Assembly (NCBI GenBank): GCA_016213105.1
Contig: JACRBN010000003.1
Span: forward strand, 1-64,000
Direction: 5' to 3'
DNA length: 64,000 bases
DNA from: Chloroflexota bacterium
Lineage (GTDB): Bacteria; Chloroflexota; Anaerolineae; Anaerolineales; Villigracilaceae
Each line of letters opens with the position of its first letter. Within the stretch, counting starts at the first letter, position 1. Positions 48,537 to 60,928 of this stretch are shown here, one piece after another. The notes under the pieces are model-generated. The model saw only the letters and a program-made list of their open reading frames with translations, did no database searches and was not told where the DNA came from. Both the position numbers and the translations under genes were made by a program.

Positions 48537-49700
48537 TCACGCCACGGAAGCGCGCCGCCTGGCGGTCAGGACGATCAGGAAGACGCCGATTAGCAGAACG
48601 CCCACAATGGCATACGCGGAGCGAATGCCCGCCAGGTCCGCCAGGCGGCCGAGGGCCAGCGGCAGGATCAGGATGGCCGTGCCCGAAGCCAGGGTGGTGC
48701 GGGCGCTGGCCTGGGTGGTGTTGCTCCCCGCCACGCCCATGGCCAGCGAGAGCAGCAGCGGATACAGTCCCGCCACGCCCAGCCCCGTCAGGAACAACCC
48801 TATCAGACCAGGGACGACGGCGCCTGTCAGCCAGAATAGGCCGAAGCCGAGGCTTGCCACCAGCACCGAAACGATCACCACGCCCCGCACGGAAAAACGC
48901 TGCACCAGGCGGCTGACCGCGATGCGGCCGACGATCATGGCCGCCAGGAACAGACTGACCGCCTTGGCGGCGTCGGTCAGGGGCAGGTGAAGGGTCTTTT
49001 CGAGGAAATCGGCGCTCCAGGAGATCATGCAAAATTCCACGGCAACGCTCAACACGATGGCCACCCAGTAGACCCAAAAGAGGGGCGGCAGGGCTTGCGG
49101 AGCTGGGACAGACGCGGCCTGCGGCGAGGCGGGTTGCGGAAGCCTGGCCCGTCCCAGCCCGAGCAGCATCAGGAACGGGGCCAGGGCGGCGATGCCCAGC
49201 GCCAGCCGCCAGCCGCCAGGCAGGGTGGCGGTCCAGCCGACCATCAGCGGCGCGGCCGTGGACAGGATCGAGGCGATCACGTTGGCCTCCGAGAGGGCGA
49301 CCGCGCGCGACTCGCCATGCTGGTCGGACAGCGCCGAAGGGACGATGATCAGGATCAGCGAGCCGATCAGGCCCATGCCGAAGGCGGCGCCGATGGTGAG
49401 CGGCGCCGTCCGCCCGAGCAGCAGGAGCAGGGCGCCCGCGCTCAACCCGAAGGCCGCGAGCCAGAGCGCGCGCGTCCGCCCGATGCGCTGAATGACGGTG
49501 TGCCCGCCGAAGCCCACCAGCAGGATGCCCAGGGCAAAGGCCGTGTAATGCAGACTGCTGACCGTGTAGGTCAGGCCCAACTCCTCCTTGAGGAAGGGCG
49601 TGATCGGGCCGATAACGTTGATGAAATAGGCGTAGAGGGCCAGCATCAAATATGCCAGCCAGGTGAGGAGATTGCGTTGAAAGGTGGGAGTGTTGTTCAT
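48537..49700 (-). CDS. MFS transporter
   Basis: 387 residues from ATG 49700, with about twelve hydrophobic helices and the internal MFS half symmetry. The loop 2-3 region has VIQRIGRTRALWL, and the equivalent loop of the second half has IAVSRLVQRFSVRG. Similar proteins are annotated as sugar or drug efflux permeases; the substrate is not readable. It is not linked to the next operon by overlap. Confidence 0.82.
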   Translation of the reverse strand: MNNTPTFQRNLLTWLAYLMLALYAYFINVIGPITPFLKEELGLTYTVSSLHYTAFALGILLVGFGGHTVIQRIGRTRALWLAAFGLSAGALLLLLGRTAPLTIGAAFGMGLIGSLILIIVPSALSDQHGESRAVALSEANVIASILSTAAPLMVGWTATLPGGWRLALGIAALAPFLMLLGLGRARLPQPASPQAASVPAPQALPPLFWVYWVAIVLSVAVEFCMISWSADFLEKTLHLPLTDAAKAVSLFLAAMIVGRIAVSRLVQRFSVRGVVIVSVLVASLGFGLFWLTGAVVPGLIGLFLTGLGVAGLYPLLLSLAMGVAGSNTTQASARTTLASGTAILILPLALGRLADLAGIRSAYAIVGVLLIGVFLIVLTARRRASVA

Positions 49701-49793
49701 GCAGGAAAGTATACCCAGCACGGTCAATTTTAAGCAGGGGAAAACGCAATTTGTGCGCGCGGGTGGTGCTTCCTGTCTGATCTGATCGGGCGG

Positions 49794-50897
49794 TTATTCG
49801 AATACGCCCTGCTCCACAAAGCGGGTAATCTCGCTGACGCTCAACTGTTGCAGGCCGAGTTTCTCCACGGTGCGCCCGCGCCGCCAGTAGTCGGTGCGGT
49901 GGATGATGCTGCCCAGGCGGATAATGCTCTCCATGCCGCGCACCGAGACGCCGTAGCGAATGCCCAGCGAAGCGATGGGCACCAGGCTCATGGGCACATC
50001 CTCGAAGATGTAGCGGTGATTGAGGGTGGGCGGGGCCTTGATGCCGTAGTAGCCAGGCTGGTTGTGAATGGCCTCGTGCAGGTCTTCGCCGACCGTGTCG
50101 TAGGCCAGCTTGAGCCATTCGAGCGAGGTGCGGGCGCGGATGCCCAGCGAGGAGGCCACGGTCACGCGTTCGCGGTCAAGCACCTCCAGCACGCGCGCCA
50201 CCGACGGGGTGACGCCGTCGATGTAGAACTGGTAGTCGCCGTGCGTGCTTTCGATCCAGCCCATGTTGAGCAGGGTCAGGGCGGGATGGAAGATGGCGCC
50301 CATGTTATTCAGGCCGGTATGCAGCACATCCACGCCGTCGATGAACTGAGGGTAGGCGTGCTGGATGGCTTCGAGCACCATCTCGTTGCGGCTGGAGGGC
50401 AGCGCCGCCAGGGGCACGGCTTCCTTGATGCGGAAGATGCGCGCCTGGGCGGGGCCGTCGGCGCGGCTGGCATAGATGAAGGTCTCGGCTTCGGCCACGG
50501 TCACATCGGCGATGCAGCCGTTGTCGCGCATGACCTTGGTAAATTCCACCGCGCCCAGCGTGCGGCCGGGGTGCAGGATGACGATCTGCCCGTCCTTCAG
50601 GTACGGGGCGGCGGCCCTGGCGATGTCGCCGTGCGCGGAGGAGGGCAGTACGACCATGATGATCTGCGCGTGGGCAATGGCCTCGGATATGTCCGAGGTG
50701 ACAAGATGGATCCTGCCGAAACCATGCGGCCCGCCCTCGGGACTCTCCAACTCGATGCCGCCGCGTTTCTTGACGACCGAAATATGCTCGAAGGTGCGAT
50801 TCCACAGGGCCACATCCGCGCCCATCAACGACAGGTGGGCGGCCATAGCCTTGCCTCCGTGTCCCGCCCCGATGACCGTGTACTTTTCCGTATTCAT
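49794..50897 (-). CDS. NAD/NADP octopine/nopaline dehydrogenase family protein
   Basis: 367 residues. N-terminal Rossmann motif VIGAGHGGKAMAAHL, then the C-terminal octopine-dehydrogenase domain with H in HTGLNNMGAIFHP, the family signature. It reduces an imine formed from an amino acid and a keto acid, or oxidises the opine. It overlaps the B12-binding gene by ATGA, so the two products probably act in one pathway. The in-frame open region upstream of ATG 50897 belongs to another reading. Confidence 0.85.
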   Translation of the reverse strand: MNTEKYTVIGAGHGGKAMAAHLSLMGADVALWNRTFEHISVVKKRGGIELESPEGGPHGFGRIHLVTSDISEAIAHAQIIMVVLPSSAHGDIARAAAPYLKDGQIVILHPGRTLGAVEFTKVMRDNGCIADVTVAEAETFIYASRADGPAQARIFRIKEAVPLAALPSSRNEMVLEAIQHAYPQFIDGVDVLHTGLNNMGAIFHPALTLLNMGWIESTHGDYQFYIDGVTPSVARVLEVLDRERVTVASSLGIRARTSLEWLKLAYDTVGEDLHEAIHNQPGYYGIKAPPTLNHRYIFEDVPMSLVPIASLGIRYGVSVRGMESIIRLGSIIHRTDYWRRGRTVEKLGLQQLSVSEITRFVEQGVFE

Positions 50898-52621
50898 TGG
50901 CTCTCCTTTTTCAAAGCCGAAAGTCTTGCCTTCTCGGATAACGGATTCCCCGACTCGTCCACCGCGACGGACTTGCCATCCACGATACGGGTGCGCGTCC
51001 TGCCCCGCCCGAACTTGTTGTTGCGCAATTGGGGCGCGTCCATCAGCCCCAGGGTGACGGCGCGCGCCAGGGTGGCGGCGTCCGCCCACGGGTCTGCGGT
51101 GCCCGCTGGGGCCAGTTCGCGGATGGCGTCCAGCAGCACGCCCGCCTCCGCGACCAATTCCTGTTTGCGGGCCTGCACCTCGGGCGCCTGGCGCATGTCG
51201 GGCGCGCCCAATGAATTCTGGATGGCGCGGCGCGTGATCTTGACCGCTTCGATGATGTCGTCGGCGCTGGCGGCGTGGTCGGCCTCGGTGTGCCCGACGA
51301 TGTGGTAGATGTCGGGACGCAGGGCCATTTGCAGGTAGGTGCTGGCGGCCAGGTGTCCGCGCGCGGCGTGCCCGTCGAGCGGATGGCTGAGCAGGCCGAT
51401 GCGGGTTTGTGTCCAGATGTGGAAGTTGCCCCCCTCGGTCCCCCCATTTGGCTGCGCAAAATGGGGGGAGGGCAGGGAAGTTGAATCCCCGTTTGGCTGC
51501 GCAAAATGAGGGGAGGAAAGCGGGGTGATTAGTTCCAGTGCGGCCAGCATCTTGGCCAGATCCATCGCGTCGCTGGTGCCTGGCGGACTGTTGAACATGA
51601 ACTGGGCGATGTAATCGCGCACGCCGCAGCGTTTGGCATTGTAGGCCGAGAGGAAGGCAGCGGCCACATAGGTCACATCGGACGAGTCGCGCATGCCCCA
51701 GTGATGCGGCTCGTTCAACTCGACGGGGATGCCGCGTTCGCCGTACCAACCCATGACCTGCTGGTGTTCTCGGATCGAGCCTTCCAAATCCCACGGGCCG
51801 CGCCCGTCCATCTGGTTGAACCAGAAGAGCGGGATGGCGCACCAAGCGTTGTGGATCGTTTCGACCAGCACCTCGGCGTAGCGGATGAAATCGTCGGTGC
51901 CCGAGTAGGCGCGCATCAGCGGATGGTTCCCACGGCGGCTGGCGGCGAAGAGCGCGCGGAAGTCGTCGGGGCTGCGCACGGGTACGCCGCCCGCTCCCTT
52001 GCGGCGCGGATCCTGCCGTTCGGGGTGGAAGAAGTTCTCCTGCGCGTCCTGGTCGGTGCCGAGCGAGATCAGGTCAAGGACTTGCGCTTCGGTGATCTGC
52101 TCGATGCCTGCCAGGGTGGCCTCCATCGTCGGCAGGCCGAAGTGATGCCGCAGGATGGGGTAGGGGCGCTTCCACAGAATGCGCTCGACGGTGGTTTGCG
52201 GAAAATCCGATTCGCCCAGGTCGCGGGCGGGCTGTCCCTTGAGCCAGGCCAGCACCTGTTCGGGCGTCTCGCTGCCGTCGAAGATGCGCTCGAAGAAGTC
52301 TCCCAGTTGGGCTGCCCTTTGCGCCACGGGCGGTGTGCCGCCAAAGGCGAAGCGGACGCCTGCCGCGTGCAGTTCCGCGGCCTCCTCGGCGAATTGCCCA
52401 AACAGCCGTTCGCCGTTCTCAGGCGTCAGCCGATACGAGACGCCGACCAGATCTGCTTTTTCGCGGCGCGCGGCCTCCAACACCTCCGCCACAGAGACGG
52501 CGGGGCCGAGGAAGATTGTCCGCCAGCCTGCCAGCTCGGCCAGCCGCAGGAAGTTCGATACACCCGCCACGTGGACACATTCGCCCAGTGCGGCGGCCAC
52601 AACGGTTTTGTGCGTATTCAT
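50894..52621 (-). CDS. B12-binding-domain protein with mutase-like TIM barrel
   Basis: 575 residues from ATG 52621 (RBS AAAGGAG). The N-terminal ~115 residues form a cobalamin-binding-like Rossmann domain: CVHVAGVSNFLRLAELAGW and LVGVSYRLTPENG, with the lower-ligand His present but without the full DxHxxG. Residues about 175-560 look like a glutamate/methylaspartate mutase epsilon-type barrel: YSGTDDFIRYAE, NEPHHWGMRD, FNSPPGTSDAMDLAKML. It may be a B12-dependent aminomutase or a relative; substrate unknown. It carries a repeat-derived insertion at 51432-51530. Confidence 0.78.
   Translation of the reverse strand: MNTHKTVVAAALGECVHVAGVSNFLRLAELAGWRTIFLGPAVSVAEVLEAARREKADLVGVSYRLTPENGERLFGQFAEEAAELHAAGVRFAFGGTPPVAQRAAQLGDFFERIFDGSETPEQVLAWLKGQPARDLGESDFPQTTVERILWKRPYPILRHHFGLPTMEATLAGIEQITEAQVLDLISLGTDQDAQENFFHPERQDPRRKGAGGVPVRSPDDFRALFAASRRGNHPLMRAYSGTDDFIRYAEVLVETIHNAWCAIPLFWFNQMDGRGPWDLEGSIREHQQVMGWYGERGIPVELNEPHHWGMRDSSDVTYVAAAFLSAYNAKRCGVRDYIAQFMFNSPPGTSDAMDLAKMLAALELITPLSSPHFAQPNGDSTSLPSPHFAQPNGGTEGGNFHIWTQTRIGLLSHPLDGHAARGHLAASTYLQMALRPDIYHIVGHTEADHAASADDIIEAVKITRRAIQNSLGAPDMRQAPEVQARKQELVAEAGVLLDAIRELAPAGTADPWADAATLARAVTLGLMDAPQLRNNKFGRGRTRTRIVDGKSVAVDESGNPLSEKARLSALKKESQ
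51432..51530. repeat. Repeat inserted in frame in the B12-binding gene
   Basis: Two tandem units of the palindrome CCCCATTTGGCTGCGCAAAATGGGG, spaced by GAGGGCAGGG-type sequence, lie inside the coding frame. They encode two SPHFAQPNG stretches. The insertion is in frame and within a loop before the last helices of the barrel. Confidence 0.72.
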
Positions 52622-52730: not shown

Positions 52731-54020
52731 TCAGCGGGTGAAGTAGGGAAACGCAAAAACATACAGGATGGTGGTCACGATCAACGTAGCCAGCATGACG
52801 GGCAGTCCGCGTTTGCTCCACAGGGCCGAGGTGATGGGAGAGCGCGTCCGCTCGGAGAGGGAGGCCACCACCACGTTGGCGGTCGAGCCGATGATCGTCC
52901 CGTTGCCGCCCAGGCCCGCGCCGAAAGCCAGCGCCCACCACAGCGGGCCGACGTTGATGCCCGAACCTTCCAGGCTTTGAATGACGGGGATGAGCGCGAT
53001 GGTGATCGGAATGTTATCGACCACGGCCGAGAGTCCCGCCACCAGCCAGAGCAGGCCCACGCCCAGCATGACGGGATTGGCGCTGCTGACGTGCGCCACC
53101 AGTCCGGCCAGTTGTCCCAGCACGCCCGCATGTTCCAGTCCGCCGACCAGCACAAAGAGCGCCACAAAGAAAGCCAGCACGCTCCACTCGATCTTTTCGA
53201 GGATCTTGCGGATGTCGGGGCGCACCCAGGCCAGCGCGGCCGAGGCTGCCGTGACCGCGATGAAGGCGGGGCTGATCCCCAGTGCTCTTTCGAAAAAGAA
53301 CAGCAGGATGGCGATGCCGAGCACGATCAACACACGGCGCGCGGTCGGCCAATCATCCAACGCTTCGGCGGGATTCAGGTGCAGCACCGCATCCGCGTTT
53401 TCGGGGCTGACGGCCAGTTCGCGGCGGAACAGGTGGCGCAACAGGAACAGGGCGGTCAACCAGGCGACGGCCACGATGGGCAGAGCGTAGATCAGAAAGT
53501 CGTTGAAGCTCAGCCCTGCCGCGGAGGCGATCAACACGTTGGGCGGATCGCCAATCAGGGTGGCGATGCCGCCCGTGTCGGCCAGGAGCGCCTCGGCCAT
53601 GAGCAGGGGCGCGGGATTCATCCCCAGGATTTCGCTGATCAGGATCGTGACGGGCGCGATGAGCACCACCGTGGTGACGTTATCCAGGAACATCGAAAGC
53701 ACGGTGGTCACGGAGCCGAGCAGCACCAGCAGGCGCACGGGCCTGCCTTTCGAGATGCGCGCGGCCTGCACGGCCAGGTATTGGAAGAAGCCCGTCGGCT
53801 CCAGCAGTGCCACCAGGATCATCATGCCCAACAGCAGGCCGATGGTCTCGATGTCGATGGTGTCGATGGCCTGTTCCTCTGTGTAGAAACCCAGCAGCAG
53901 GCCGCTGACAAGCATGAGCGCCGCGCCTGTCACGGCGGCAATCGTGCGATTCACTTTTTCGGTGAAGATCACATACAGCGTCGCCCCAAAGATCAGAAGT
54001 GCGACCACGCCCGCGATCAT
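52731..54020 (-). CDS. ArsB/NhaD-type (SLC13-like) ion transporter
   Basis: 429 residues from ATG 54020, overlapping the CBS gene stop (ATGA). About eleven to twelve helices. The conserved DNVTTVVLIAPV and DPPNVLIAS in the first half and DNIPITIALIPV with GSTANVVVAS in the second are hallmarks of the ion-transporter superfamily (citrate/arsenite/Na+:H+). The ion is not decided. Coupling to a CBS-domain protein suggests regulation by an adenine nucleotide. Confidence 0.85.
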   Translation of the reverse strand: MIAGVVALLIFGATLYVIFTEKVNRTIAAVTGAALMLVSGLLLGFYTEEQAIDTIDIETIGLLLGMMILVALLEPTGFFQYLAVQAARISKGRPVRLLVLLGSVTTVLSMFLDNVTTVVLIAPVTILISEILGMNPAPLLMAEALLADTGGIATLIGDPPNVLIASAAGLSFNDFLIYALPIVAVAWLTALFLLRHLFRRELAVSPENADAVLHLNPAEALDDWPTARRVLIVLGIAILLFFFERALGISPAFIAVTAASAALAWVRPDIRKILEKIEWSVLAFFVALFVLVGGLEHAGVLGQLAGLVAHVSSANPVMLGVGLLWLVAGLSAVVDNIPITIALIPVIQSLEGSGINVGPLWWALAFGAGLGGNGTIIGSTANVVVASLSERTRSPITSALWSKRGLPVMLATLIVTTILYVFAFPYFTR

Positions 54021-54487
54021 GCGCCACCGCCCTGCGAAATGGTCCAACCTTTAAGGAAGGCCGTGCCAACGTCCACGCGCGAAGCGATGCCGACCAGCTT
54101 TCCATCCGCGTCGACGACGGGCAGGTCGTGCAGGTCGTGTTTGTGGAGCAGGGCCGAGGCGCGCAGCAGGCCGCTGGTAGCCTCCACAGATTCAGGCGGC
54201 TTCATGTGGATTTCGACCTTTTGCGCCAGCAGTTCGGGGCTGGGCTGGCGATTCTCGGCCGCGCCGAAATCCATCACGAAGTCGAAGTCCTCGATGAATT
54301 TCACGAAGTCGGGCATAACCAGGGTCAACAGGTCGCGCAGTTGCAGCAGCCCAACCAGCGCACCCTTTTCATCCACCACGGGCAGGGTGCCGATGTGACG
54401 TTCCGCAAAGATCCTGACGGCTTCCCCCAGCGTATTGCTCTTTTGGATGGAGAAGATATTGCGTTTCATGCAGTCTGAGATGCGCAT
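54017..54487 (-). CDS. CBS-domain pair protein
   Basis: 156 residues, two CBS motifs: GTLPVVDEKGALVGLLQLRDLL and LHDLPVVDADGKLVGIASR (regions about 33-54 and 120-138). Stand-alone CBS pairs bind AMP/ATP-type ligands. It is co-translated with the transporter gene it overlaps, so it probably regulates transport (inference). Upstream lies a pair of palindromic repeats. Confidence 0.85.
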   Translation of the reverse strand: MRISDCMKRNIFSIQKSNTLGEAVRIFAERHIGTLPVVDEKGALVGLLQLRDLLTLVMPDFVKFIEDFDFVMDFGAAENRQPSPELLAQKVEIHMKPPESVEATSGLLRASALLHKHDLHDLPVVDADGKLVGIASRVDVGTAFLKGWTISQGGGA

Positions 54488-54521
54488 GGGAACTCCTTTT
54501 GTGGTGAGTCGAAAATCGGAA

Positions 54522-54573
54522 TGCAGACTTTAGTCTGCTCTGGAATTGCGGACTGAAGTCCGCGCTCCGACAA
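54522..54573. repeat. GCAGACTTTAGTCTGC / GCGGACTGAAGTCCGC palindromes
   Basis: Two near-perfect 16-bp palindromes in the spacer between the CBS and exchanger genes, of the GCGGACTGAAGTCCGC family frequent in bacterial genomes. Confidence 0.6.
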
Positions 54574-54579
54574 ATTTCG

Positions 54580-55584
54580 TTAGCTTAGCCAGTAAAGAAC
54601 GATCATCGAGCCGAGGTACATGCCTGCGAGCGCCAGGCCGTCCCAGGAGAAGCGATAGGGCAGGCGCGGCGAGGCGCGGTACATCAGGCTGATGATGACC
54701 ACGCCCGTCATCATCATGGCCATCACGGCGGCGAAGGCGTTGGTATTATTCAACGAGGCCCAGAAGTTGGCCCGTCCATCGGCGATATCATAAATGGCAA
54801 ACAGCATGATATTGAACAGGTTGCTGCCCAGCACGTTGCCGATGGCCAGGTCGATGGCGCCCAGGCGGATGGCGGCCAGGCTGGCTGCAATCTCGGGCAG
54901 GGAGGTGGTGGTCGCCAGAAACAGGTTGCCGACAAAGCTGCGTGAGAGTCCCGTGATGGTCGAGAGGCGGTCGCCGATGCTGGAAAGCCAGATGCCCAGC
55001 GCCACTACGGCCACGGCGTTCAGGATGAATATGATGTAGGCCTTGCGGGCAGTGATCTTTTCATAGTGCTGTTCCCTGGCTTCCTGCTCCAGCACCTCGG
55101 TCATGCGCTGCTGTTCGAGGCGGGCGATCATCCTGCCGCCCAATGCGTACAGCACGACAAGGGCTATGCTTAGAACGCTGATGCCAAAAAAGCCAACCCC
55201 GTTCAAATCCGCGCCGATCTCCACACCCAGGGCGACCATGCCTAACAGCAGGATGCCCAGTCCGCCCGAGAGGATGTGCACATCCTGGGCCTTGGCCAGC
55301 ACGCGCCCGGGCTGGTAGGCCAGATCCATCATGGCGATCAGGGCCAGGTTGAACAGGCAACTTCCCAGCACGGCGCCCGCCGCCAGGTTGGGAGCGTCCA
55401 GCCAAACGACTGCCGAAACGCCCGAGGACAACTCGGGCAGGGACGTGACGCCTGCGATCAAAATGGCGCCGATCCAGGCCCGTCCCAGGCCGGTCTTTTC
55501 GGCGATAACGTCGCCGTATTTCGAGAGAATGCTGGCGGCCCAAATCAGGAATGCGCCGCAGACGAGTAATTCGAGCCAGATCAT
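54580..55584 (-). CDS. Sodium/calcium exchanger family protein (CaCA)
   Basis: 334 residues from ATG 55584. Two inverted repeats each carry the alpha-motif: TSLPELSSGVSAV with GSCLFNLALI, and TSLPEIAASLAAI with GSNLFNIMLF. The acidic Glu in TSLPE of both repeats is conserved, as in cation-binding sites. It exports Ca2+ or a similar cation in exchange for Na+ or H+. Its start overlaps the LacI gene stop. Confidence 0.9.
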   Translation of the reverse strand: MIWLELLVCGAFLIWAASILSKYGDVIAEKTGLGRAWIGAILIAGVTSLPELSSGVSAVVWLDAPNLAAGAVLGSCLFNLALIAMMDLAYQPGRVLAKAQDVHILSGGLGILLLGMVALGVEIGADLNGVGFFGISVLSIALVVLYALGGRMIARLEQQRMTEVLEQEAREQHYEKITARKAYIIFILNAVAVVALGIWLSSIGDRLSTITGLSRSFVGNLFLATTTSLPEIAASLAAIRLGAIDLAIGNVLGSNLFNIMLFAIYDIADGRANFWASLNNTNAFAAVMAMMMTGVVIISLMYRASPRLPYRFSWDGLALAGMYLGSMIVLYWLS

Positions 55585-56600
55585 TTCTTTCCTCCGCTGG
55601 AAGCACGGATCAATAAATTCGGTTGGATGGTGACGACCCGTTCCCCGATCTCCTCGCGCGCGACGACCTTCAATAAAAGCCTGGTCAGGGTGCGCGCGAT
55701 GGTGTACACGGGCTGGTCGAGTGTGGTCAGGGGGGGCTGGGTGTGCGCCGAATCGGCGACGCCGTCGAAGCCAGCAATGGCGATGTCGCGCCCGACCACG
55801 TATCCCTGGTTGTGCGCGGCGTGCATGGCGCCGATGGCCGTCAGGTCGTTGACGCACACCACCGCACTGGGTGGATGCTCGCTGGTGAGCAGCCTGAGCA
55901 TGGCCTGGTACCCGCCTTCGGGCGTCAGGTCGCCTGTGGCGATCAGGTCGGGCCGCGGCTGGATGTGGAGCGCGGTCAGCGATTTCTGGAAGGCTTGCAA
56001 ACGGTCATACTGGAGCTTGAGGCCGGCGTCCGCGCCGATGAAGGCGATGTGACTGTGGCCCTGGGCCGCCAAATGACCGAGCAATTCCAGGTAGCCACCC
56101 TCGATCTCCGTCTCCACGCCCAGGAAATCGGCAGCCTGGTCGAGCGAGCGTTCCAGGCAGGCAAACGGGATTTTATTCTCCCGTAGAAAATCCACGCGCC
56201 AGTCGCTCAGCCGTGTGCGGTTGAGGATCACCCCATCCACTTTTTCGCCCTGCACCCAGCGGCGGTAGAGGGCTTGCTCCTCCGCGGAGTTGGGCGGGGC
56301 GGTGGAGACCAGCAGGTCGTAATTGGCGCTGGCGGCCTCGTCGCCCAGGCCCGCGATGAACTCCGCGAAGAAGGGATCGGCGAACTGCGGCTTCGCGGCG
56401 GGGACGATGTAGCCGATGCTGTCCGTCCGCCGACGGCGCAGTTGACGGGCGGCGCGGTTGGGCACGTAGCCCATCTCCCGCGCGGCCTCGATCACGCGCT
56501 GGCGGGTTTCCTCGGAGACATCGGCGTACCCGTCCAGGGCGCGCGAGACGGTGGTGATGGAAATATTGAGCTTCCTGGCGACATCACGGATGGTTGGCAT
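55581..56600 (-). CDS. LacI family transcriptional regulator
   Basis: 339 residues from ATG 56600. N-terminal HTH TIRDVARKLNISITTVSRAL and hinge helix region RAARQLRRRR, then a periplasmic-binding-type effector domain with GFDGVADS. The effector is probably a sugar or nucleoside, unknown. A perfect palindrome CCAAAACGTTTTGG lies 14 bp upstream of the start, so it probably represses itself. It overlaps the exchanger gene, which suggests control of both. Confidence 0.9.
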   Translation of the reverse strand: MPTIRDVARKLNISITTVSRALDGYADVSEETRQRVIEAAREMGYVPNRAARQLRRRRTDSIGYIVPAAKPQFADPFFAEFIAGLGDEAASANYDLLVSTAPPNSAEEQALYRRWVQGEKVDGVILNRTRLSDWRVDFLRENKIPFACLERSLDQAADFLGVETEIEGGYLELLGHLAAQGHSHIAFIGADAGLKLQYDRLQAFQKSLTALHIQPRPDLIATGDLTPEGGYQAMLRLLTSEHPPSAVVCVNDLTAIGAMHAAHNQGYVVGRDIAIAGFDGVADSAHTQPPLTTLDQPVYTIARTLTRLLLKVVAREEIGERVVTIQPNLLIRASSGGKK

Positions 56601-56613
56601 GGGAATTATTTTA

Positions 56614-56627
56614 CCAAAACGTTTTGG
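56614..56627. promoter_or_regulatory. LacI-type operator, perfect palindrome CCAAAACGTTTTGG
   Basis: 14-bp perfect palindrome with the central CG step typical of LacI-family operators, 14-27 bp upstream of the LacI start codon. Autoregulation is the simplest reading. Confidence 0.7.
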
Positions 56628-56688
56628 AAGGGGCAAGAAAAAACGCTGACCAAAGGCCAGCGCTATATTACTGCGTATTTCGTGTAGA

Positions 56689-58806: not shown

Positions 58807-60264
58807 TTATACGAGCGCCTTTTCCTCCGCGGCGATGATGCGTTCCAGCTCGGCGTCGAGGGCCGCATCCAACGGATCGGGCTGATGCTCGGCCAGCAGT
58901 TTGCGGGCCTTGGTCAGCGCCCAGTCGCGGGCGTCGTCCTTCTTCGACTCCCATTCGGTATAGGGGCGGCGGTCCATGAACTGCGGCAGGAACAGGTCGC
59001 GCATGTGGGCGCGGGTGTGCTTCTGCGAGAGGAAGTTTCCGCCCGGGCCGACCGCCGCGATGGCCTCCAGCGCCAGCGTCTCAGCATTGACCGGGATGCC
59101 CTGCATCATTTTGTGGACGATCGAGAAGATCTCGGCGTCCAGCATCATCTCGGCGAAGGACCAGATGCGGCTGCCATGCAGGAAGCCCAACCCCAACAGC
59201 ATATCGGACATAACCAGACTGGCCATGAAGGTGGACAGACTGTTTTCGAGGCCCGCCTGCCAGTTGGGTTCCTTGGCGCCTGTGGCGAAGGAGCCCATCG
59301 AGAGCGGGATATTGTAGTAATCGGCCAGCACGTTGGTGGCCGCGCCGAAGAGGAAATCCTCGGGGCCGCCGCCCGTGTAGGCGCCGTTGCGCAGATCCGA
59401 GGCGGTCTGGGCCGCGGCGTAGAAGACGGGCGCGCCCGGGTGGGCCAGTTGCAGCATGGCAGTGGCGGCGATCACCTCGGCGTTGCCCACGGCCAGGTTG
59501 CCCGCCATGGTGGCGGGACCCGTGGTCAGGCAGGCGGCCATGGTCATGAAGCCGGTCGGGATGCCCGCTTCGGCGGCCAGCAGGGCCGCATCCAGCGAGC
59601 CGCCGTCGTGGCCGAGCGGCGAGGCGGTGCACTGCATCAGCGAGAGCACCGGGCGCTTGCGGAGCTGGTCTTTTCCGCCCGCGATCAGGGATGCCATCTC
59701 GATGGCGGCGCGCGCCTCGTGTTCGCTGTAAACCGACTCGGTCTGCACGTGTTTGGTGGAGTTGCCCCAGATGGCGCGGATCTCGTGCAGGCCGCGCGTT
59801 TGATGCGGCTTGTCCTGGGCCGAAACGGGTACCCAGTGGAAGGCCACCTCCTCGGTGGCGTCGGCGATGCGGGCGATGTCGCGCACATCCTGTAATTCCG
59901 AGGTGCGCTTCACGCCCGTGTGAATGTCGATGACTTCCACGCCGCAGCCGTCGGTGCCGGCGTAGACGTGGTTGCCGTCCAGCGGCAGATCCTGTTGCGG
60001 GTTGCGCGCGGCCAGCGTGTAAAAAGGCGGACAGGAATCGAGCGCCTGCTCGATCAGCTCGGGTCTGGCGCGCACGATCATCCTGTCGCGGTCGATCTCA
60101 GCGCCGTTTTCCGCCCACACCTCCAGCGCACGCTGCGAGGGAAACCTCACGCCGACCTTTTCGATGATCTGCAGGGTGGCGTCGTGGATTTTCCTGACGT
60201 CTTCGGGTGTTAACACCTTCAACTGCAATTTTGGATTGGTGATGGACTTGATGTTCTTGGACAT
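58807..60264 (-). CDS. MttB/trimethylamine methyltransferase family protein (non-pyrrolysine)
   Basis: 485 residues, a TIM-barrel methyltransferase of the MttB superfamily. There is no in-frame TAG, so no pyrrolysine is used, as in MtgB-type glycine-betaine methyltransferases. Signatures: NPQQDLPLDGNHVYAGTDG, TGFMTMAACLTTGPA and GPGGNFLSQKHTRAHM. It moves a methyl group from a quaternary amine or related compound to the corrinoid protein encoded next door. The substrate is not known. Confidence 0.88.
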   Translation of the reverse strand: MSKNIKSITNPKLQLKVLTPEDVRKIHDATLQIIEKVGVRFPSQRALEVWAENGAEIDRDRMIVRARPELIEQALDSCPPFYTLAARNPQQDLPLDGNHVYAGTDGCGVEVIDIHTGVKRTSELQDVRDIARIADATEEVAFHWVPVSAQDKPHQTRGLHEIRAIWGNSTKHVQTESVYSEHEARAAIEMASLIAGGKDQLRKRPVLSLMQCTASPLGHDGGSLDAALLAAEAGIPTGFMTMAACLTTGPATMAGNLAVGNAEVIAATAMLQLAHPGAPVFYAAAQTASDLRNGAYTGGGPEDFLFGAATNVLADYYNIPLSMGSFATGAKEPNWQAGLENSLSTFMASLVMSDMLLGLGFLHGSRIWSFAEMMLDAEIFSIVHKMMQGIPVNAETLALEAIAAVGPGGNFLSQKHTRAHMRDLFLPQFMDRRPYTEWESKKDDARDWALTKARKLLAEHQPDPLDAALDAELERIIAAEEKALV

Positions 60265-60277
60265 GGGAAACTCCTGC

Positions 60278-60928
60278 TCAGCCTGCCGCGACCAGTTGTT
60301 TGGCGATATTGACCGCGCCGATGGCGTCCTCGGAATAGCCGTCCGCTGAAATCCTGGAGACCCAGTCGCGCGTGATCGGCGCGCCGCCCACCATGACCTT
60401 GAAACGGCTGCGCAGGCCCTCCTTTTCCAGGTCGTCGATCACCTCGCGCTGTTTGACCATGGTGGTGGTCAGCAGGGCGCTCATGGCGATGATGTCGGCA
60501 TTCACCTCGATGGCCTTGGCGATGATCTTGTGCGGGGAGGCGTCCACGCCTAGGTCGAAGACCTCGAAGCCGGCCGCGGTCAGCATGGTGCCGACCAGCG
60601 ACTTGCCGATCTCGTGGATGTCGCCTTCCACGGTGGCCAGCACCACCTTGCCGAGCACCTCGCGTTCGGCGCCGCGCTTCATCATCTCGGGTTCGAGGGT
60701 CTTGACGGCAGCCTTCATGGCTTCACCCGCCATGACCAACTCAGGCAGGAAGGCCTCGCCCTCCGCGAACTGCTGCCCGACGAAGTTGACGCCCACCACA
60801 AAGCCTTTGGTGATGGCCTCCAGCGGGTCCAGTCCGCCCTGAATGGCTTGTTCGGCCAGTTGCGTGGCGGCATCCGCATCGCCGTCGATGATGCTTTGCG
60901 CCATTTGCTTGAATAATTCGTCGGTCAT
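60278..60928 (-). CDS. Corrinoid methyl-carrier protein (MtbC/MttC type)
   Basis: 216 residues. A helical cap (about 1-85) is followed by a B12-binding domain with the complete DxHxxG motif in GDIHEIGKS, then SALLTTTM and GGAPIT. It accepts the methyl group from the MttB-like enzyme, which begins 13 bp downstream. A partner that passes the methyl to a thiol or tetrahydrofolate is not in the window. The gap 60929-61194 holds a TATATAAT-rich stretch and a terminator, no gene. Confidence 0.92.
   Translation of the reverse strand: MTDELFKQMAQSIIDGDADAATQLAEQAIQGGLDPLEAITKGFVVGVNFVGQQFAEGEAFLPELVMAGEAMKAAVKTLEPEMMKRGAEREVLGKVVLATVEGDIHEIGKSLVGTMLTAAGFEVFDLGVDASPHKIIAKAIEVNADIIAMSALLTTTMVKQREVIDDLEKEGLRSRFKVMVGGAPITRDWVSRISADGYSEDAIGAVNIAKQLVAAG

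Follow-up and report, generated by a model that had tools for sequence, protein, structure and literature searches.

We describe a two-gene, operon-like unit in a 64,000-nucleotide stretch of DNA from a Chloroflexota bacterium (below, the window; its genome, G000, measures 5.39 Mb). The unit joins MUT, a vitamin B12-binding protein with a predicted fold closest to glutamate mutase, to ODH, an opine dehydrogenase related to N-(1-D-carboxyethyl)-L-norvaline dehydrogenase (CENDH), and the same pairing is found in many Chloroflexota. We propose, with a probability of roughly one in two, that the B12 mutase acts on an acidic amino acid and that ODH traps the product as an opine, the two genes forming a biosynthetic module. 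A broader form of this idea, which we hold at slightly less than even odds, is a B12-dependent opine pathway, widespread in Chloroflexota, in which an enzyme of glutamate-mutase fold with a rebuilt substrate site and an acidic-amino-acid ODH make, or break, an N-(1-carboxyethyl) opine with a rearranged carbon skeleton.

A gene pair kept across Chloroflexota

The first-pass annotation of this DNA had described two genes overlapping by ATGA, and this layout is borne out: the genes are arranged as in an operon on the minus strand, and a Shine-Dalgarno-like AAGGAG/AAAGGAG precedes each of the two starts.

50894..52621, minus strand: MUT, a B12-binding/glutamate-mutase-fold fusion protein of 575 residues (open frame; Pfam B12-binding match; predicted fold closest to glutamate mutase E)
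49794..50897, minus strand: ODH, a CENDH-like opine dehydrogenase of 367 residues (PF02317, E 1e-45; 1bg6 over the full length, E 8.9e-77)
50894..50897, minus strand: ATGA, the overlapping stop codon of MUT and start codon of ODH (sequence)

From 290 candidate stretches in genome contigs that encode a MUT relative we took the best 80 loci, which bear Chloroflexota names or belong to groups that we take to be Chloroflexota. Pairs were counted by tblastn, and the counts are non-independent because the genomes are related. ODH lies directly downstream of MUT, within 300 bp and on the same strand, in 76 of the 80 loci; the order is swapped in L104, with ODH directly upstream, and two genes stand between MUT and ODH in L091. 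Among 61 related genomes, a full-strength MUT match occurs in 29, weak B12-domain matches in three more and ODH in 30. All 29 MUT-bearing genomes have an ODH match (only an 82-residue piece in G026, and one cut by a contig end in G032), as does one of the 32 without MUT, where the ODH is distant (33% identity); the Fisher p value for this co-occurrence, 1.4e-16, is overstated since the genomes are related. MUT and ODH lie about 1.9 kb apart in G047.

A 400-genome sample of the phylum contains MUT in 27 genomes (cut by contig ends in G070 and G403) and a divergent form in one, G234. An ODH reaching 61% identity or more is present in 26 sample genomes, and in every one of them it shares the strand of MUT at a distance of 11 to 247 bases; 41 others have only ODHs of 27–39% identity and no full MUT. 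These ODH counts are lower bounds, as the query (the window ODH, P0002) misses distant ODHs, for example in G234. On the counts in the related genomes, the 80 loci and the phylum sample, we rejected a chance adjacency of the two genes. The survey of gene pairs that the first-pass annotation had proposed thus finds the pair kept across Chloroflexota, and its reservation that the pair might not be kept in other genomes falls away. Both genes are carried by the cultured thermophiles Bellilinea caldifistulae and Anaerolinea thermolimosa (L077, L082), and can therefore be expressed and assayed. Nothing pointed to viruses or plasmids as carriers: 48 stretches of viral contigs matched a pattern and none was confirmed as MUT, and no MUT match was found in 72,556 plasmid records. 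As a separate observation, L018:422-2230 (in G026) holds MUT residues 1-537 and ODH residues 286-367 in one open frame, as if from an internal deletion or a misassembly.

The divergent locus of G234, L109, presents the pairing in rearranged form. Its gene run comprises an amino acid permease, an RpiR-type regulator, an ODH, a B12-barrel-MutL fusion and oligopeptide-type ABC genes, of which the solute-binding protein gene is split over two frames. The ODH belongs to another branch (23% identity to P0002), has Arg111 and Gly198 without Arg35 (numbering of the Arthrobacter CENDH, ArODH), and overlaps the fusion gene downstream by 4 bases. The fusion protein, P0003, has 1264 residues comprising a B12 domain, a MUT-like barrel and MutL (PF13941, E 4.8e-80), is 33% identical to MUT over 549 aligned positions, and was the one match in the 400-genome sample whose open frame exceeds 800 residues; it matched 10 plasmid records, all within its MutL half. 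The mutase accessory protein GlmL belongs to the MutL family, and annotated GlmL is seen between glmS and mutE. The rearranged pairing and the MutL fusion support a functional link between the two proteins and true mutase activity, and they support adenosylcobalamin (AdoCbl) mutase as the predicted identity of the MUT family. We dropped the co-occurrence of MutL as evidence in the window genome, since MutL matches are present in 60 of the 61 related genomes (59 over the cut-off) with or without MUT, which is found only in 29. A MutL-like protein of the window genome lies at G000:C25:159233-160594.

Predicted folds and conserved residues of MUT and ODH

Four features of MUT, all on the minus strand, are relevant to its putative mutase activity.

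52301..52606, minus strand: N-terminal B12-binding domain, residues 6-107 (PF02310, E 7.1e-11; Foldseek)
50915..52213, minus strand: catalytic-barrel part, residues 137-569 (VIA-align to 1cb7_B; hhalign to a MutE alignment)
52562..52582, minus strand: motif ECVHVAG, residues 14-20, with the ligand His17 and Gly20 of DxHxxG kept and Cys15 replacing Asp
51284..51286, minus strand: Glu446, aligned with GlmE Glu330, an adenosyl ribose contact (hhalign)

The structure of MUT was predicted from 73 rows, made up of the window protein and its counterparts at 72 of the 80 loci, with a predicted local distance difference test score (pLDDT) of 84.4. In a Foldseek search of the PDB the top matches of this model are glutamate mutase E (7.5e-14 and 1.0e-13). 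VIA-align, used as a second look at the Foldseek matches with a ranking that covers 50 rows, aligns the barrel with 1cb7_B at Z 31.4 and a root-mean-square deviation of 3.1 over 380 aligned residues at 16% identity; the order among the matches listed is glutamate mutase E (31.4), lysine 5,6-aminomutase (29.2), ornithine 4,5-aminomutase (25.4) and methylmalonyl-CoA mutase (20.9). The N-terminal domain matches 4r3u, the small B12 subunit of 2-hydroxyisobutyryl-CoA mutase (Foldseek E 5.4e-6), and GlmS 1i9c_A, the small B12 subunit of glutamate mutase (E 7.1e-6, 24% identity). Profile comparison by hhalign with five MutE sequences gives E 7.8e-8 over 351 columns, and another alignment E 2.3e-6 over 380 columns.

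Pfam assigns MUT the B12-binding domain only, without a match to PF06368 (glutamate mutase E) at E up to 1, and NCBIfam gives just weak methylaspartate mutase S matches and does not recognise the barrel as methylaspartate mutase E. PF06368 has no match in the window genome, and only 4 out of 251 genomes from the phylum have one above the cut-off. As modelled, the architecture of MUT is that of an S-E fusion of the glutamate mutase fold. The B12 domain and epsilon-subunit-like barrel read from this DNA earlier are thus supported by the Pfam B12 match and the predicted fold, whereas the barrel goes unrecognised by Pfam and NCBIfam.

Conservation was read from a 73-row alignment, A3, which leaves out L035, L043, L044, L065, L083, L089, L094 and L103. 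Residues E14, C15, V16, H17, A19 and G20 are invariant in all rows and V18 is found in 72; the divergent P0003 also keeps C15, V16, H17 and G20 (CVHxxG). The earlier reading that the lower-ligand His is kept in an incomplete DxHxxG therefore holds throughout the alignment, with His and Gly kept and Asp as Cys. Glu446 is Glu in all 73 rows and in alignment A5. In ornithine aminomutase, according to a passage in PMC3958899, Glu338 matters for Co-C homolysis and a similar ribose contact has been suggested for glutamate mutase Glu330. The window genome encodes a corrinoid adenosyltransferase. The pairing of the genes, the predicted folds and the conservation of cofactor and specificity residues are thus on record here; from them we infer that MUT uses AdoCbl, that its substrate is of the acidic amino acid class, and that the two enzymes have a metabolite in common.

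ODH aligns over its full length with 1bg6, the Arthrobacter CENDH (E 8.9e-77); its match to octopine dehydrogenase is far weaker (E 2.9e-7). Its residues were surveyed in 78 of the 80 loci, L050 and L105 having no ODH match.

50562..50564, minus strand: Arg112, ArODH position 111; Arg in 78 of 78 loci, marking acidic amino acid use (main text of PMC10787698)
50298..50300, minus strand: Gly200, ArODH position 198; Gly in 77 of 78 loci, with a gap in one

The window ODH carries GAGHGG, a GxGxxG motif. The His of the His-Asp dyad is present in all 77 readable loci and the Asp in 71 of 74, the other three having Glu; Arg35 (ArODH numbering) is present in 78 of 78. In the main text of Telek et al. 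2024 (PMC10787698), hot-spring ODHs (mODHs) with close to 40% identity to CENDH are described as favouring L-Asp, L-Glu and the sulfonate analogues of the two, in combination with pyruvate. This preference is set by Ala111 to Arg together with Asn198 to Gly, and Arg35 accompanies NADPH acceptance, though not strictly. We therefore predict that the window-family ODH is CENDH-like and falls in the mODH subclass for acidic amino acids. "Octopine-type", the earlier description, is right as to an opine dehydrogenase (Octopine_DH, E 1e-45), and is better replaced by CENDH-like, acidic-amino-acid type.

Order and direction of the putative pathway

How might the two enzymes work together? MUT would be a single-chain S-E AdoCbl mutase holding its cofactor in the base-off form, His17 being the lower ligand. 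Arrival of the substrate in the barrel would trigger Co-C homolysis, with Glu446 holding the ribose, and the resulting radical would rearrange the carbon skeleton of a glutamate-like acidic amino acid. ODH would then condense the acidic amino acid with pyruvate and reduce the imine with NADPH to give an N-(1-carboxyethyl) opine, and opine formation would pull the mutase equilibrium forward. In some lineages, an enzyme encoded next to the pair, asparagine-synthase-like or of the ATP-grasp type, may go on to form an amide from the product. Our guess is that the mutase comes first and that the pathway runs in the biosynthetic direction.

The neighbouring genes bear on this proposal. Neighbour clusters were named by eye from the first 150 residues, save for those that were profile-scanned, and the 30 largest were examined; for downstream genes, 65 loci offer room, that is at least 2 kb beyond ODH, and the neighbour counts carry no null model. 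Asparagine-synthase-like genes occur in 30 of the 80 loci, with all 32 genes on the MUT strand (27 downstream, 5 upstream); one lies within 3 kb downstream in 22 of the 65 loci, leaving 43 without. Some of the encoded proteins lack Cys2 of the glutaminase domain (e.g. MSGIAGI). D-Ala-D-Ala-ligase-like ATP-grasp proteins follow within 3 kb in 4 of the 65, and DUF5698 proteins within 3.5 kb after the pair in 26 of the 65. In the Thermoflexales locus L091 (1655-6945), MUT, a D-glutamate-cyclase-like gene, an asparagine-synthase-like gene without Cys2 and ODH follow one another with overlapping ends; the D-glutamate-cyclase-like gene was found in L091 only, among 84 sequences searched. This run and the asparagine-synthase-like neighbours fit acidic amino acids; with the mutase fold and the acidic-amino-acid ODH taken into account as well, an acidic amino acid is probably what all of these have in common. 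Synthesis is weakly favoured by Arg35 of ODH and by the ATP-using partners. In the window itself a transporter gene comes next.

48537..49727, minus strand: MFS transporter, a possible third gene of the window copy, 66 bases after ODH (MFS_1, E 1.9e-31)

Several observations weigh against the proposal that the mutase feeds an opine synthesis. Cys stands in place of the DxHxxG Asp in 73 of 73 MUT rows. The Arg claw of glutamate mutase, GlmE Arg66, Arg100 and Arg149, which we take to be its substrate-binding residues, is replaced in profile alignments at about 20% identity by His160, Gln194 and Tyr239 of MUT (Gln194 in both alignments, Tyr239 and His160 in one each), and GlmE Glu171 and Tyr181 are likewise not kept in these alignments. 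L050 has no ODH in the 4 kb after MUT, L105, whose contig ends 475 bases further on, has none in that space, and G403, where MUT is cut by a contig end, shows none elsewhere in its assembly. No cobalamin riboswitch was found within the window, and genes other than the pair recur in at most 30 of the 80 loci. The permease and oligopeptide-type ABC genes of L109 suggest uptake and breakdown in that branch. Finally, the measured mODHs take plain L-Asp and L-Glu, so that no rearranged amino acid is required, and NADPH is kinetically preferred by four of six mODHs while NADH is better in preparative reactions for four of six, which makes NADPH a weak sign of synthesis (main text of PMC10787698).

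Because PF06368 finds no match and the profile alignments do not keep the Arg claw, we rejected a plain glutamate mutase identity; MUT is probably not a plain glutamate mutase, its substrate probably differs, and free glutamate may not be that substrate. His160, Gln194 and Tyr239 are each invariant in 73 of 73 rows. As far as can be read from the alignments, the residues suggest cobalamin radical chemistry on a substrate other than glutamate.

The order of the two steps could be the reverse, with ODH first making an N-(1-carboxyethyl) acidic amino acid and MUT then rearranging this tricarboxylate opine. This is unlikely in our estimate, though it has points in its favour: the related mODHs produce opines of this kind from L-Asp and L-Glu (main text of PMC10787698). 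In the barrel, R158, H160, Q194, R216, R237, R274, H306, R311, R407, H440 and H449 are invariant despite the loss of the GlmE Arg claw, and a larger polyanionic substrate might need these Arg, His and Gln residues. However, the contents of the pocket come from alignment and not from coordinates, the MUT-ODH order in 76 of the 80 loci is non-decisive, and N-substituted amino acids are not known to us as substrates of any mutase with this fold, which counts against the reversed order.

More doubtful still is a catabolic module, in which ODH splits an imported opine, releasing pyruvate and an acidic amino acid that the mutase converts for central metabolism. The pair of L109, whose ODH lacks Arg35, sits amid genes for an amino acid permease, an RpiR-type regulator and oligopeptide-type ABC proteins, and a MetN-like ABC ATPase cluster is found in 5 of the 80 loci. 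In the main family, however, Arg35, which is linked to NADPH use though not strictly, is present in all 78 ODHs, and the commonest recurring nearby enzymes are ATP-using and amide-forming, two features that fit synthesis better. Peptide or amino acid transporter clusters, judged by eye, reach 5 of the 80 loci at most, and ion-type transporters reach 9.

It is very improbable that MUT is not a mutase at all and serves instead as a B12 methyltransferase partner, a B12 light sensor or a scaffold for ODH: cobalamin use is just predicted and the DxHxxG Asp is Cys, yet the protein has a full mutase barrel with Glu446 kept, and a relative is naturally fused to MutL. Staphylopine is exported by CntE, and opine metallophores use opine dehydrogenases of the superfamily of ODH, so the MFS gene 66 bases downstream could point to an exported metal-chelating opine, the least credible of the alternatives, given that none of the 30 largest neighbour clusters is of MFS type by eye, and that a scan of 9 neighbouring proteins, taken from the window and the retrieved loci, showed nothing resembling nicotianamine synthase.

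Surroundings of the pair and known systems

One further feature of MUT is a long loop in its barrel part.

51425..51517, minus strand: extra loop, MUT residues 369-399, with two palindromic elements (loop lengths, DNA)

The loop has 31 residues in the window protein and 4 in 57 of 72 relatives, and pLDDT falls under 50 at residues 376-397. In-frame palindromic elements with differing stem cores are present in the MUT loops of the window, L030, L078 (which shares a contig with L017), L038, L102, L042 and L049. The palindrome tail GGGGGGACCGAGGGGGG is common to the window, L030 and L017/L078 loops, and no further exact copy of it was found in the window genome. The loop may be a recurrent insertion site for small palindromes, or a decaying old insert.

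Upstream of MUT, at 52731-56636 on the minus strand, the window encodes a CitMHS-type transporter, a CBS protein, a Na/Ca exchanger and a LacI regulator, relatives of which lie near MUT in 9, 7, 9 and 13 of the 80 loci, respectively (by eye); this recurrence may be plain synteny. About 6 kb from the MUT-ODH pair lies a second B12 system, also on the minus strand (58807-60928). It consists of an MttB-family methyltransferase (PF06253) and, beside it, a corrinoid protein that has both a B12-binding and a B12-binding_2 domain.

The first-pass annotation had not recognised a pathway of this kind, and in agreement with this we found no description of the pairing in the open-licence PubMed Central (PMC) literature: among the papers that full-text searches brought up, none has a title or abstract linking an opine dehydrogenase with a B12 mutase, which is not proof of absence. 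For the rearranged opine class and its mutase substrate, too, we found no description. To our knowledge, few carbon-skeleton or aminomutase reactions of AdoCbl are known; with its changed substrate site in a conserved family, MUT may add one.

Among known systems, glutamate mutase (GlmS and GlmE, EC 5.4.99.1; Clostridium cochlearium, 1cb7/6h9e) has in common with MUT the B12 domain, the barrel fold, the lower-ligand His and the equivalent of Glu330. MUT differs in being one fused S-E chain that PF06368 does not match, in the Arg claw, which is not kept in the alignments, and in the Cys for the DxHxxG Asp. The PLP-dependent (pyridoxal phosphate) lysine 5,6- and ornithine 4,5-aminomutases (1xrs, 8t0v, 3kp1) have a barrel similar to that of MUT (Z 25 to 29). 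Lysine 5,6-aminomutase carries its PLP-binding Lys in the Rossmann (B12) domain, as a passage in PMC3958899 describes; MUT residues 1-135 contain no fully invariant Lys, though K5 is kept at 90% or more. MutL (PF13941), fused to a MUT-like protein in L109, is not part of the window pair.

On the dehydrogenase side, Arthrobacter CENDH (ArODH, 1bg6) is homologous to ODH over the full length; in contrast to ODH it has Ala111, Asn198 and Ile35, and prefers apolar amino acids and NADH (main text of PMC10787698). The mODHs described there, mODH-45 to -582, are CENDH-like and have Arg111, Gly198, Arg35 and the His-Asp dyad as in ODH, except that mODH-582 has Ile at position 35. On L-Asp they show, in that text, a low efficiency of 0.04 to 1.46 per s per mM, so that a better natural substrate is conceivable. 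The words mutase, cobalamin, B12, operon and methylaspartate are absent from the main text of PMC10787698, whereas the ODH described here is tied to a B12 mutase-like gene. The pairing would also give acidic-amino-acid ODHs a natural context that this text, as far as covered here, does not offer, and its occurrence in many Chloroflexota points to a directly testable metabolic pathway.

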